A stretch of 64,000 nt of DNA. It comes from Leptotrichia hongkongensis. Its GTDB lineage: Bacteria > Fusobacteriota > Fusobacteriia > Fusobacteriales > Leptotrichiaceae. This document shows positions 8,383 through 56,578 of the stretch, in pieces (position 1 is the stretch's first letter; each line of letters begins with the position of its first letter). The stretch is taken from NCBI RefSeq assembly GCF_007990635.1, contig NZ_AP019846.1:1984001-2048000 (forward strand). The letters are read 5' to 3'. The notes under the pieces are model-generated. The model was not told the origin of the DNA. It was given only the letters and a program-made list of their open reading frames with translations, and ran no database searches. A program made the position numbers and the translations under genes.

Positions 8383-8459
8383 TGGCGTCCCCGGTTGGAC
8401 TCGAACCAACAGTACTCTGATTAACAGTCAGATGCTCTAACCGGCTGAGCTACGGAGAC
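8383..8459 (-). tRNA. tRNA-Asn (GTT)
   Basis: Read on the minus strand it folds as a full cloverleaf of 77 bases: acceptor GTCTCCG with CGGGGAC, TA, D-arm GCTC..GAGC, anticodon arm CTGACTGTTAATCAG with anticodon GTT, T-arm GTTGG TTCGAGT CCAAC, discriminator G and an encoded CCA. It lies about 15 bases after the 5S gene and is probably co-transcribed with the rRNA operon. Confidence 0.96.
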
Positions 8460-8473
8460 GCAAAAGAAAAAAA

Positions 8474-8586
8474 GTTTGGCGGCTTCCTATTTTCCCGGGA
8501 CGAATCAAGTATCGTAGGCGCAGGCAGACTTAACTGCCGGGTTCAGAATGTGACCGGGTGTATCCCTGCCGCTATGATCGCCAAAC
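8474..8586 (-). rRNA. rrf: 5S ribosomal RNA
   Basis: The minus strand has the closing helix GTTTGGC/GCCAAAC at both ends, the loop A/B region CCGGTCACATTCTGAACCCG and the TAAGTCTGCC helix, all typical of 5S rRNA. The ends are set by the terminal helix and may be off by a few bases. Confidence 0.93.
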
Positions 8587-8639
8587 TTTTGAATATAGAT
8601 TGCATTGCCTAAGGCAATGGGAAATAAATAGCAGAAGCA

Positions 8640-11545
<2,906 letters not shown>

Positions 11546-11655
11546 CCAGAATAACTTTTTACTCCAGTTTAATTGTAATCTTTTACCTACTATTCATTTC
11601 CCATTGTCCTAGTATTGAACATAGACATAAGAAGAAGCTGTGCATGTTGCTCCTT

Positions 11656-13168
<1,513 letters not shown>

Positions 13169-30893: not shown

Positions 30894-31070
30894 TCAATAA
30901 GTTCGATTTCCATATTTGTCCTTGCAGTAATAATAACCATTCTCATTCTCATAACATCTTATACCTCTTTCAGCTGCTCGCCGATCTGAATCTTTCCAGA
31001 GAGCAATATCATGTGCACTGCATCCTACAACTGTCATTCCAAGTAACACAATCAAAATCAATTTCTTCAT
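30894..31070 (-). CDS. Small putative lipoprotein
   Basis: A 58-residue protein with a signal sequence MKKLILIVLLGMTVVGCSA ending in a lipobox cysteine (residue 17), then a short polar domain with CYENENGYYYCKDKYGNRTY. The open frame begins three codons earlier at TTG, but AGGAG lies 10 bases before the ATG at 31070. It is probably anchored in the inner face of the outer membrane or the cytoplasmic membrane. The C-terminal domain with two cysteines is not recognised. It has its own terminator and lies between the tandem repeats and peptide locus 1. Confidence 0.75.
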   Translation of the reverse strand: MKKLILIVLLGMTVVGCSAHDIALWKDSDRRAAERGIRCYENENGYYYCKDKYGNRTY

Positions 31071-31189
31071 AAAAATCAACTCCTATCCCATATTCTATTT
31101 ATTATATTATAACAATTACTTATAATTTCCAAATTTTATTTTTAGGGGTTTTTGATTAGAATTTCCTTATATTTACTTTTTCACTCTAC

Positions 31190-31220
31190 AAAAACCCGCC
31201 AGCAAAGTTCAACTGGCAGG
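31190..31220 (-). terminator. Terminator of the locus 1 peptide mRNA
   Basis: On the minus strand CCTGCCAG/CTGGCGGG (31195-31220) is followed by TTTTTG. The equivalent stem in locus 2 is CCTACCAG/CTGGTAGG: the A-T pair there is a G-C pair here, a compensatory change in otherwise almost identical flanking sequence. Confidence 0.9.
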
Positions 31221-31260
31221 CAAAAGGTAGGACAACAAGACAAGAATTCAACTGCTAATC

Positions 31261-31326
31261 TTAACTGCTAAAAATCAAAAACAATATGATTATAACAGCC
31301 AAAACAGTCAAATCCCAATTTGCCAT
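31261..31326 (-). CDS. Small hydrophobic peptide, candidate type I toxin (locus 1)
   Basis: A 21-residue peptide, MANWDLTVLAVIIILFLIFSS, preceded by a GGAGGTGG ribosome site. It is a single hydrophobic helix with a short polar head, the form of membrane-active type I toxins. The peptide at 56441-56512 is a clear paralogue (NWDLTVLxVIIILFLIF is shared). Protein-level conservation and the flanking RNA arrangement show that it is a real gene. I do not recognise the family; it does not match Fst, Hok, Ldr, Ibs, TisB or TxpA as I know them. Toxicity is inference. Confidence 0.85.
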   Translation of the reverse strand: MANWDLTVLAVIIILFLIFSS

Positions 31327-31385
31327 TGCAACCACCTCCCTGCTTTTATAAATTGTAGTATCAAGGTTGCGACCCTTGACAAATA

Positions 31386-31414
31386 ATTATAACATAAAAA
31401 AAAGCCCCATTCAA
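31386..31414 (-). promoter_or_regulatory. Promoter of the locus 1 peptide mRNA
   Basis: TTGAAT (31409-31414) and TATAAT (31386-31391) on the minus strand, 17 bases apart. The -35 box lies within the 3' arm of the sRNA terminator hairpin and the T-tract of that terminator fills the spacer. Confidence 0.85.
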
Positions 31415-31472
31415 CAAGAACAGAGCTTTTTTTTCGCATTTTTACTACAACCTAAAAGCAGGTTTTTTATTC
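31393..31472 (-). ncRNA. Candidate antitoxin sRNA (locus 1)
   Basis: An RNA of about 80 bases predicted from its own promoter (31479-31507) to the terminator hairpin at 31401-31429 plus T-run. It has no ribosome site or reading frame. Bases 31443-31462 (minus strand CCTGCTTTTA, GG, TTGTAGTA) are complementary in two blocks of 10 and 8 to the leader of the adjacent peptide mRNA at 31339-31348 and 31353-31360, ending at its ribosome site. It would therefore block translation of the peptide. Ends are predicted, not measured. Confidence 0.75.
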
Positions 31473-31478
31473 AAAAGT

Positions 31479-31507
31479 ATTATATCATTTTTTCCAAAAA
31501 AATTCAA
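31479..31507 (-). promoter_or_regulatory. Promoter of the locus 1 sRNA
   Basis: TTGAAT (31502-31507) and a consensus TATAAT (31479-31484) with a 17-base spacer on the minus strand. Locus 2 has TTGAAT-17-TACAAT at the same relative place. Confidence 0.85.
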
Positions 31508-31583: not shown

Positions 31584-33866
31584 TCACATCATATTTACAG
31601 GATCTACATCAATTGTTACCCTGACTTTCTTTTCTCTTTCCCGAAATTTGCCTACACATTTTTTTATGATTTTTTTAATTTTTAAGATATTTTCTCTTTC
31701 AAATTTAAAAAATATTTGGTATCTGTATCTGCCGTTTATTTTGTAAATTGGGGATTTAAAAGCGTCTGAAATAAAATCATTTGAAGTCAAGTTCATAGCT
31801 GCGTTTACATTTCTTATAATTTCTTCACGCAAAATTTTGGCTTTTTCCATTACCAAATTTTCTTCAGTTGCCGAAATTACCAAAATTATAATTCGTCCAA
31901 AAGGCGGATAATTTAACATTTTTCGCATAATCATCTCGTTTTTGTAGTATCCTTCGTAATCACTTTTAATTGTTTTTTTTATTACATCATTTTCGCCATT
32001 AAAAGTCTGAATAATCACTTCCCCATCCTTTTCTCCACGTCCTGCACGCCCTGAAGCCTGTGTCAATAGCTGAAAAGTCTTTTCCGAGGCCCGAAAATCT
32101 GGAAAATTTAAGATTATATCAGCATTAATTACTCCGACTAATGTTACGTTTGAAAAATGCAGTCCCTTTGCAATAATCTGTGTTCCGAGCATTATGTCGT
32201 ATTTGTGATTTTTAAAGTCGTTGTAGGTTTTTTCATAATTCTGCTTTGTCTTTATGCTTTCAGAGTCTACTCTTACTATTCTTGCCGATGGAAACGCCGT
32301 CGCTAATTCCTCTTCAATTTTTTCCGTCCCAGCGCCAATTTGCCTCATTTTATGCCCACCACATTCATCACACGCGTTGTTAAAGCGTTTTTCATATCCA
32401 CAGTAATGGCATTTGAGACTATTATCATATTTGTAATAGTTTAAGGAAATACTGCAGTTCGGACAAGTTGGAATATTTCCACAATCCTTGCATTTTAGCA
32501 AATTTGAAAATGCCTTTCTGTTCAAAATCAAGATAACCTGCTCATTTTTTTGTAAAGTCTGAGAAATCCTATTTAGCAATTCTTCTGAAAAATTTTCTGT
32601 TGTTTCATTCAAATCCACAATTTTAAATTTTGGCAATTTAGCATTCTTATACCTTTTTGTGAGCTCAATTAATTCAATATCGCCCTGCTGTGCCTGATAA
32701 TAAGTTTCAAAAGATGGAGTTGCCGAACCTAAAATAACTTTTATCTTTTCACTTTTTACAATTTCAGCTTCTTCCAAATTAACATTTTTCTCTAATTCAT
32801 TATTTTTTTCAAGTTTTTCATCTTTTTTCAAATTTTCGTTTTGCAAAAATGCCCTTTTTATCGCCACATTTTTTACCTGATACCGTGGATTATTCTCCTG
32901 CTTATAGGTATTTTCATGCTCCTCATCCACAATAATATATTTCAAGTTCTGAACAGGTGCAAAAACCGCCGATCTTGCTCCAATCACAATTTTCTTTTCG
33001 CCATTTCGTATGAAAGTCCACTCTTCCCGCTTTTCCTTGTCTGTAAGTTTGCTATGAAGAATAGCCACTTCATTGTGAAATTCCTCCTCAAGCCTTTGTA
33101 TCATCTGAACTGTAAGTGAAATTTCAGGTACCAGAAAAATACTGCCAAACCCTTGTTTCAAGGCTTCCTTTATCAAATTAATATAAATTTCCGTCTTCCC
33201 TGAACCAGTTATCCCCTTTAACAGAAAAATCTGATTTTTACTATTTTTTATCGTATCCACAGCCTTTTGCTGCTCATCATTCAAAATAATTTCCTTTTCT
33301 ACAATTTCACTTTTTCCCTTTTCACTTTTTGAAATTTTAGAATTTAAAATAACTTTCTTTTCAATCGAAATAACCTTTTCATTTACAGCTCTTTCCACAA
33401 TTTCGCTAGAAAAATTCTTTTTCAAAGTTGCAACCGTAACTTCCTGACGTTTTTTCATATATTCGTTAAATTTTTTTATTTCCTCAATTTTTTCCACTTC
33501 CAAAGTTTCATTATTTTCAGAAAATTCCTTTTGAAAAATGGCTTTTTTGGAATAATTTAACTTCAATGCTCCTGGATAAACTGACTTTATTACGCTATAA
33601 TAATCACTTATATAATAATTTTTTATCCATCTTATAAGCTGCATAATATCGGATGGAATGGATAAAACTGGGGCAACATCCTTAATTTTTTTCACTTTTG
33701 AAATATCAAACTGAATCTGATTTTCATTAACAATTGCTACAATAAGCCCCATTTTATCCTTATTTATAAAATTAACAATGCACCATTGCCCAATTTCATA
33801 CTTCTCTTCCGATTTATACGTATATATTCCCTGATTATTTTCCACATAAATTTCATAATAATACAT
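31584..33866 (-). CDS. priA: Primosomal replication protein N' (helicase PriA)
   Basis: A 760-residue 3'-5' helicase that restarts stalled forks by reloading the replisome. The N-terminal DNA-binding domain (about 1-110) precedes the helicase core with Walker A GITGSGKTEIY (about 218-228), IIVDEEHENTYKQ (DEEH box), LGSATPS, and the zinc-binding cluster CKDCGNIPTCPNCSISLNYY...CHYCGYEKRFNNACDECGG (about 455-500, eight cysteines), followed by GTEKIEEEL and ASGRAGRGEKDGEV. All key motifs are present. There is a lysine/glutamate-rich insertion of about 30 residues near 355-385, unlike E. coli PriA. Upstream gene is the PBP. Confidence 0.95.
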   Translation of the reverse strand: MYYYEIYVENNQGIYTYKSEEKYEIGQWCIVNFINKDKMGLIVAIVNENQIQFDISKVKKIKDVAPVLSIPSDIMQLIRWIKNYYISDYYSVIKSVYPGALKLNYSKKAIFQKEFSENNETLEVEKIEEIKKFNEYMKKRQEVTVATLKKNFSSEIVERAVNEKVISIEKKVILNSKISKSEKGKSEIVEKEIILNDEQQKAVDTIKNSKNQIFLLKGITGSGKTEIYINLIKEALKQGFGSIFLVPEISLTVQMIQRLEEEFHNEVAILHSKLTDKEKREEWTFIRNGEKKIVIGARSAVFAPVQNLKYIIVDEEHENTYKQENNPRYQVKNVAIKRAFLQNENLKKDEKLEKNNELEKNVNLEEAEIVKSEKIKVILGSATPSFETYYQAQQGDIELIELTKRYKNAKLPKFKIVDLNETTENFSEELLNRISQTLQKNEQVILILNRKAFSNLLKCKDCGNIPTCPNCSISLNYYKYDNSLKCHYCGYEKRFNNACDECGGHKMRQIGAGTEKIEEELATAFPSARIVRVDSESIKTKQNYEKTYNDFKNHKYDIMLGTQIIAKGLHFSNVTLVGVINADIILNFPDFRASEKTFQLLTQASGRAGRGEKDGEVIIQTFNGENDVIKKTIKSDYEGYYKNEMIMRKMLNYPPFGRIIILVISATEENLVMEKAKILREEIIRNVNAAMNLTSNDFISDAFKSPIYKINGRYRYQIFFKFERENILKIKKIIKKCVGKFREREKKVRVTIDVDPVNMM

Positions 33867-56261: not shown

Positions 56262-56290
56262 TTGAATTTTTTAGAGAAAAATGATACAAT
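56262..56290 (+). promoter_or_regulatory. Promoter of the locus 2 sRNA
   Basis: TTGAAT (56262-56267), 17-base spacer, TACAAT (56285-56290). Same position and near-identical boxes as in locus 1. Confidence 0.8.
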
Positions 56291-56296
56291 AGCATT

Positions 56297-56371
56297 AAAT
56301 AAAAACCCAACGGTTAAAATATGGCAAATTGTGGAAAAAAGGCTTCATTCATTATTGAATGAGGCTTTTTT
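56297..56371 (+). ncRNA. Candidate antitoxin sRNA (locus 2)
   Basis: An RNA of about 75 bases predicted from its promoter to the terminator hairpin GGCTTCATTCA/TGAATGAGGC (56341-56365) with a T7 run. No coding potential. CAACG (56308-56312) and AATATGGCA (56318-56326) are complementary to CGTTG (56423-56427) and TGCCATATT (56410-56418) in the leader of the peptide mRNA just downstream, ending directly before its ribosome site. The two blocks differ entirely from those of locus 1, yet match their own target. Ends are predicted. Confidence 0.75.
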
Positions 56372-56382
56372 TATGTTATAAT
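56355..56382 (+). promoter_or_regulatory. Promoter of the locus 2 peptide mRNA
   Basis: TTGAAT (56355-56360), 16-base spacer, TATAAT (56377-56382). As in locus 1 the -35 box is part of the 3' arm of the sRNA terminator. Confidence 0.85.
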
Positions 56383-56440
56383 TATCCGTCAAGACTTCAC
56401 AAACCTTGATGCCATATTGAAACGTTGTGAGGTGGTCTCA

Positions 56441-56512
56441 ATGATGAACTGGGATTTGACTGTTTTGACAGTTATAATCATTTTGTTTTTGATTTTTAAC
56501 AGTCAAAAATAG
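56441..56512 (+). CDS. Small hydrophobic peptide, candidate type I toxin (locus 2)
   Basis: A 23-residue single-helix peptide, MMNWDLTVLTVIIILFLIF then NSQK. The ribosome site GAGGTGG is 5 bases upstream of the first ATG, which also fits the alignment with locus 1. The leader opens with the hairpin TCAAG...CTTGA, shared with locus 1. No named family recognised. Membrane insertion and toxicity are inferred from form and arrangement. Confidence 0.85.
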   Translation: MMNWDLTVLTVIIILFLIFNSQK

Positions 56513-56546
56513 CAGTTGAATTCTTGTCTTATTGTCCTACTTTTTG

Positions 56547-56578
56547 CCTACCAGTTGAATTTTACTGGTAGGTTTTTT
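56547..56578 (+). terminator. Terminator of the locus 2 peptide mRNA
   Basis: CCTACCAG/CTGGTAGG stem with a 10-base loop, followed by TTTTTT. The 36 bases before it are almost identical in locus 1. Confidence 0.92.

Follow-up and report, generated by a model that had tools for sequence, protein, structure and literature searches.

The question raised by the stretch of DNA above, a 64,000-nt window of the Leptotrichia hongkongensis contig NZ_AP019846.1 (coordinates of locus 1 and locus 2 below are positions in this window), is whether a cassette of about 320 bases on its minus strand, in which a gene for a small RNA (sRNA) is followed by a gene for a short hydrophobic peptide, is a toxin-antitoxin module whose antitoxin lies in tandem with the toxin. 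The comparison of this cassette (locus 1) with its relatives suggests that it is very probably a type I toxin-antitoxin-like module with a tandem, trans-acting antitoxin. The evidence carrying this reading is the complementarity between each sRNA and the leader of its own message, which is retained across homologous cassettes although the target sequence differs at almost every locus, together with constraint on the peptide reading frame. The initial annotation had made the same proposal, which the complementarity and a ratio of nonsynonymous to synonymous polymorphism (pN/pS) of 0.34-0.39 support well, and a base-level check found the promoters, sRNA, terminators, leader hairpin, ribosome site and 21-residue open reading frame (ORF) all where it had placed them. 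The parts of locus 1 are as follows (SD, Shine-Dalgarno sequence; 3'UTR, 3' untranslated region).

31479..31507, minus strand: sRNA promoter P1 (TTGAAT 31507-31502, 17 bp, TATAAT 31484-31479, the -10 preceded by TG), which recurs at most other cassettes.
31396..31472, minus strand: predicted antisense sRNA of ~77 nt, with a terminator hairpin and T-tract at its end (start placed from the -10; fold z -4.5).
31453..31462, minus strand: sRNA block 1, CCUGCUUUUA, 10 bp exact with UAAAAGCAGG (31348-31339) adjoining the SD; covaries across loci.
31443..31450, minus strand: sRNA block 2, UUGUAGUA, 8 bp exact with UACUACAA (31360-31353); covaries across loci.
31434..31438, minus strand: sRNA block 3, UGCGA, complementary to the apical loop UCGCA (31372-31368) of the leader hairpin; none of 100,000 loop-tail permutations did as well.
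31386..31414, minus strand: toxin mRNA promoter P2 (TTGAAT 31414-31409, 17 bp, TATAAT 31391-31386).
31190..31379, minus strand: predicted toxin mRNA of ~190 nt, a predicted closed rod with the SD paired to the 3'UTR (fold z -5.9; probability of this pairing 0.89).
31361..31379, minus strand: leader 5' hairpin (TCAAGG, GTCGCAA loop, CCTTGA).
31335..31340, minus strand: SD, GGGAGG, abutting pairing block 1.
31261..31326, minus strand: ORF, stop included, of the 21-residue hydrophobic peptide MANWDLTVLAVIIILFLIFSS (hydropathy 2.02; homologues found).
31224..31232, minus strand: 3'UTR anti-SD element UCCUACCUU, from its predicted pairing with the SD.
31190..31221, minus strand: toxin mRNA terminator, with compensatory changes in its stem.

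Relatives of this cassette were found by DNA, peptide hidden Markov model (HMM) and promoter-pattern searches and later by a relaxed pattern, the patterns presupposing an sRNA followed by a peptide on one strand. Across the Leptotrichiaceae, 58 cassettes were parsed and grouped into 26 target classes, finer than the single-linkage clusters, which were judged too coarse. By comparing pairs across these classes, mean duplex energies of -17.5 kcal/mol for cognate and -6.05 kcal/mol for non-cognate partners were obtained, and cognate pairing was equalled in 0/100,000 permutations, a figure that serves as a guide and not as an exact probability because the target classes are related to each other. 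The cognate partner ranked first for 24/26 sRNAs and 25/26 leaders, and in 16/16 of a narrower set of classes; the sRNA of a second cassette in the window (locus 2), one of the two that do not rank it first, places it third, with the binding region trimmed. Matched sRNA and leader segments such as CCUGCUUUUA/UAAAAGCAGG at locus 1, AUAUGGCA/UGCCAUAU at locus 2 and CAAUCUGUGUG/CACACAGAUUG at 2249 kb illustrate how the targets change while their complements follow, and the promoter hexamers, promoter spacing and P2-to-ATG distance stay nearly constant. Homologous loci lacking the complementarity or the peptide frame, which the initial annotation had named as grounds for abandoning its proposal, were sought among the 58 cassettes, which retain the complementarity and, in most copies, the frame as well.

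The 10- and 8-base blocks that had been pointed out at locus 1 are both exact, and to this inventory we add two elements that had been overlooked, the anti-SD element of the 3'UTR and a third block, in which the sRNA segment just 5' of the terminator complements the apical loop of the leader hairpin. Loop and tail vary together (UGCGA/UCGCA, UUGUGAA/UUCACAA, UAGCGAA/UUCGCUA, UGGUGAAA/UUUCACCA, UUUGCAGA/UCUGCAAA), and 0/100,000 permutations over 32 loop types matched their complementarity. The three blocks are collinear and antiparallel, and thus the interaction could begin at the loop and zip toward the SD.

Complementarity reaching as far as the SD, as initially described, holds in Leptotrichia, Sebaldella and other genera but not in two others (g11 and g2), where the tandem upstream RNA is instead antisense to the first codons, start codon included, in a locus-specific manner and over 9-13 bp. 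The members of this start-codon subtype are four copies in one genome (L464, L466, L467 and L468 in G029) and one copy in another (L465 in G001), with pairings of 13 bp (UAAACGAACCAUA, ACGAAUGAACAUA, CGAUAUAACAUAU) and, in G001, of 9 bp plus more. The N-terminal residues of their peptides (MVRLV, MFIRV, MLYRI) track the RNA pairing. The tandem layout is therefore more general than its SD-directed form.

The peptides range from 18 to 24 residues, with a best 15-residue hydropathy of up to 3.3, and every intact copy has one hydrophobic stretch. The pN/pS range given above applies within subfamilies, and RNA structure may contribute part of the constraint on silent sites. Decayed ORFs stand beside intact sRNAs and leaders at L011, L063, L080 and L052, the pattern expected if the toxin is lost first. 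Pfam, NCBIfam and PADLOC gave no significant match to the peptides, with profiles being weak at about 20 residues and peptides of 18-19 residues lying outside the scan; weak Pfam and NCBIfam scores for ATP-synt_8 and STEVOR were far below cut-off. The term family, used in the initial annotation, fits the architecture, but the peptides of different genera do not align confidently.

The ~190-nt message folds far better than its dinucleotide shuffles. Its SD is predicted to pair with the anti-SD element just 5' of the terminator with P>0.5 in 18/23 classes, and the element is present in almost every intact copy.

A second structural feature concerns transcription, as locus 1 has its P2 -35 within the sRNA terminator loop and its P2 -10 directly 3' of the T-tract. 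Fused terminator-promoter modules also precede ordinary Leptotrichia genes (L041/L262, G000:C1:831565-831658, with equivalents in G005, G007, G008, G012 and G014), again with the -35 in the terminator loop and a T-tract followed by TGnTATAAT, so that the fusion is not unique to the cassettes.

From these parts we propose two separate transcripts: from P1 an antisense sRNA, unstructured and about 80 nt long, and from P2 a message of about 190 nt for a single-pass hydrophobic peptide. The newly made message would fold with its SD paired to the 3'UTR anti-SD. The sRNA, acting in trans, would probably touch the leader-hairpin loop first with its tail block and then zip along the leader to the SD, forming a duplex that would keep the 30S subunit off and probably be exposed to RNase III. 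Because the genes lie in tandem, transcription from P1 should run into P2 and occlude it, and any read-through RNA would be silenced by folding back on itself. Should sRNA synthesis stop through plasmid or prophage loss, transcription arrest or stress, the longer-lived message, once trimmed at its 3' end, would be translated into peptide that would depolarise the membrane of its own cell.

The architecture had been reported to recur near 56.3 kb, and locus 2 indeed has the same anatomy on the plus strand (~56262-56578). Its parts were read from the sequence, and in the case of the peptide also from homologues and coding constraint.

56262..56290, plus strand: promoter P1 (TTGAAT-17-TACAAT).
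56297..56372, plus strand: sRNA with terminator.
56355..56382, plus strand: promoter P2 (TTGAAT-16-TATAAT).
56441..56512, plus strand: peptide MMNWDLTVLTVIIILFLIFNSQK, stop included.
56546..56578, plus strand: toxin mRNA terminator.

The two copies initially counted in this genome stand, and the DNA search adds two further full cassettes that had been missed, one at 557.1 kb with a broken ORF (start ATA plus indels) and one at 2249.5 kb encoding MINQDWAILLVIIVLFLIFSHQR. The locus-1 cassette, on the minus strand, is flanked by priA (31584-33866) and a small lipoprotein gene (~30894-31079). Of 13 genomes, the window's own and G006 are the only two with this site occupied, and the locus-2 site has the same flanking genes in G005 with the cassette absent. 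Cassettes occur in 12/13 Leptotrichia genomes and in one sister genus, a single genome carrying as many as 9 (1–9 copies in most Leptotrichia genomes). Further Leptotrichiaceae genera, one being Sebaldella termitidis (relaxed pattern), show the same anatomy with very different peptides, such as MRTLAIVTILFIVITKVLY and METLITTIVLMYIVYRLTK. At L288 (G012:C1:1650728-1651431), two cassettes with differing sRNA specificities lie in direct tandem, possibly after a recent duplication.

Several copies are carried by mobile elements: plasmids of L. trevisanii (pJMUB3870-2), L. wadei and S. termitidis (NC_013518), small contigs with Rep_1, Rep3, Rep_OBD and Mob_Pre proteins, and a viral contig in which one cassette, a prophage copy, lies near terminase and portal genes. 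The peptides are without annotation in the plasmid records. The Sebaldella plasmid cassette (L432, NC_013518 29399-29899) adjoins a gene for a PemK/MazF-type type II toxin. Plasmid and prophage carriage, presence or absence at a site and decayed ORFs are typical of type I toxin-antitoxin systems.

Among the matches listed for the TG-type promoter-plus-SD pattern across genome contigs, nearly all were chance and one was a Leptotrichia member (L113); in viral contigs, this pattern gave no member and the TT-type pattern gave one (L416). Relaxed-pattern matches in Fusobacteriaceae and further families of the phylum had neither a leader hairpin nor complementarity and were judged to be chance, the weak peptide-HMM matches checked outside Leptotrichiaceae had no cassette around them, and Campylobacter plasmid matches to the promoter region came down to a 30-bp AT-rich match. 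Small hydrophobic ORFs in Streptococcus (L135, L143, L144) and Paenibacillus (L137) were also among the matches listed for the promoter-plus-SD pattern, and presumably resemble the Fst-like and TxpA-like toxins of Firmicutes.

Several observations weigh against the module as proposed. With regard to the lock, the mean SD–3'UTR pairing is 0.67 versus 0.46 with a shuffled 3'UTR, so that shuffles also pair frequently, covariation between the 3'UTR and the SD flank is weak (489/100,000 permutations were as good), and the RNAalifold consensus on the mRNAs supports the terminator without the long-range lock. Because of the weak flank covariation and the RNAalifold result, we grade a 3'UTR lock of the full-length message as likely. 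With regard to the antitoxin, the L292 locus is without any cognate preference, and an orphan copy near a contig end (L290, G014:C12) retains an intact ORF, SD and P2 -10 with its sRNA region replaced by an apparent insertion element, no exact match to the cognate sRNA block being present elsewhere in the G014 draft genome. The P2 -35 of this orphan is weakened, and it may therefore be silent.

The rival that survives best, although we consider it unlikely, is that the peptide is a small membrane protein other than a toxin, modulating stress or a transporter under the same antisense control. Purifying selection on the peptide, whose toxicity is a prediction, would suit such a role, as would the tolerance of G014 for its intact orphan without the sRNA, but many near-redundant copies with different RNA specificities, presence or absence at orthologous sites, plasmid and prophage carriage, two-layer translational silencing and frequent ORF decay fit a toxin module and not a housekeeping peptide. 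A cis-acting attenuator appears very improbable; here a single P1 transcript without free sRNA would pair its upstream half with the leader, and a terminator/antiterminator would control the peptide gene. The sRNA region and leader do form a collinear pair of inverted complements within a single strand, which would let read-through RNA fold as an attenuator, whereas nearly all cassettes have a near-consensus sigma-70 promoter at a fixed distance past the terminator, no alternative antiterminator is evident, the third block pairs with the apical loop in the manner of loop-initiated antisense recognition, and at L306, where the sRNA lies ~80 nt further from P2, complementarity is apparently retained (by eye, unscored). 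The idea that promoter- and terminator-like strings and a non-coding ORF fell together by chance in an AT-rich genome has almost no probability left, since promoter-like matches at locus 1 show a mild excess over shuffles (6 versus 3.5), but terminators number 2 versus 0.2 expected, and the coding constraint and the covarying complementarity in dozens of homologous copies, with its 0/100,000 permutations, refute it.

Returning to the toxin-antitoxin reading, we are moderately confident in its fullest form, namely that the cassettes make up an unreported, family-wide class of RNA-controlled toxin cassettes in Fusobacteriota whose antitoxin acts in trans and is encoded in tandem. In this form, the sRNA terminator would double as the -35 region of the toxin promoter, coupling sRNA synthesis with toxin transcription, and a triple lock would combine loop-initiated antisense to the SD, the 3'UTR anti-SD and promoter occlusion; in one or more switches, the start codon would have become the target of the sRNA, and the N-terminal residues of the peptide would have changed in step with the RNA pairing.

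Comparison with known systems places the cassette close to type I. Until a cyanobacterial case was reported in 2025, Proteobacteria, Firmicutes and Tenericutes were the only phyla known to carry type I systems, whose antitoxins are described as encoded on the opposite strand, with search tools seeking overlapping antisense genes (PMC12390103). The cassette encodes a short hydrophobic peptide that spans the membrane in a single stretch and an RNA complementary to, and specific for, its own toxin mRNA, and an antitoxin RNA with its own promoter is predicted from sequence, P1 and the terminator being conserved. It departs from the description in strand, as the sRNA is upstream on the same strand in all cassettes parsed, an order that the search patterns presupposed. 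We found no description of the cassette and no report of a type I system in Fusobacteriota in the open-access literature searched, and the term toxin-antitoxin is absent from the F. nucleatum transcriptome paper (PMC11005410).

The closest functional parallels are tisB/istR-1, shoB/ohsC, zorO/orzO and dinQ/agrB of E. coli, in which, as here, a hydrophobic peptide is accompanied by an adjacent, non-overlapping sRNA gene whose product targets a structured 5' leader in trans; zorO, too, is duplicated, and its leader structure hides the ribosome-binding site (PMC8309996). The antitoxins of these loci are divergent and bind a long 5'UTR at a distance from the translation start (PMC4147584), whereas the cassette has its sRNA upstream on the same strand, with the terminator fused to the toxin promoter, and a duplex reaching the SD or, in the start-codon subtype (subtype B), the start codon. 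No sequence similarity links the cassette to these loci. In hok/sok and aapA/isoA, a compact mRNA is locked by long-range pairing between the start region and the 3' end, the antisense RNA is directed to a loop, and paralogues are many, with plasmid carriage and decayed copies. The cassette shares the predicted long-range lock, loop-directed recognition, multiplicity, plasmid carriage and decay, but its antitoxin is tandem and acts in trans, in contrast to the cis-encoded, opposite-strand antitoxins of those systems, and it has no Rfam match.

The Bacillus systems bsrG/SR4 and txpA/ratA likewise encode small membrane peptides, and the BsrG 3'UTR helps to hide the ribosome-binding site (PMC12390103), but their antitoxins, encoded on the opposite strand, overlap the 3' end, and their peptides differ from those of the cassette. 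Type III systems (toxIN, cptIN, tenpIN), which have been reported in Fusobacteria (PMC4147584), resemble it in having an RNA antitoxin gene upstream on the same strand with an intervening terminator; their RNA is a tandem-repeat pseudoknot binding an endoribonuclease, whereas the RNA of locus 1 contains no repeats and is antisense to the message of a 21-residue ORF. Microcystis msoT1/msoA1, a recent type I-like case, shares with the cassette a host from beyond the three classical phyla (PMC12390103), but is cyanobacterial and was found by a search for overlapping antisense antitoxins.

Since current tools look for overlapping antisense genes, the tandem layout escapes them, and many more tandem systems may exist. 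The roughly ten locus-specific sRNA-mRNA pairs in one genome would lend themselves naturally to the study of how duplicated antisense pairs diverge in specificity, and the fused terminator-promoter predicts transcriptional coupling. If the peptides are toxic, the cassettes would also serve to maintain plasmids and prophages in an oral genus that has received little study.

At the Rfam gathering score, 11 homologous loci gave no match, and the only matches in the window were to ribosomal RNA (rRNA) and transfer RNA (tRNA). The window contains a complete rRNA operon (16S, 23S, 5S) and a tRNA at 8386-13168 on the minus strand.
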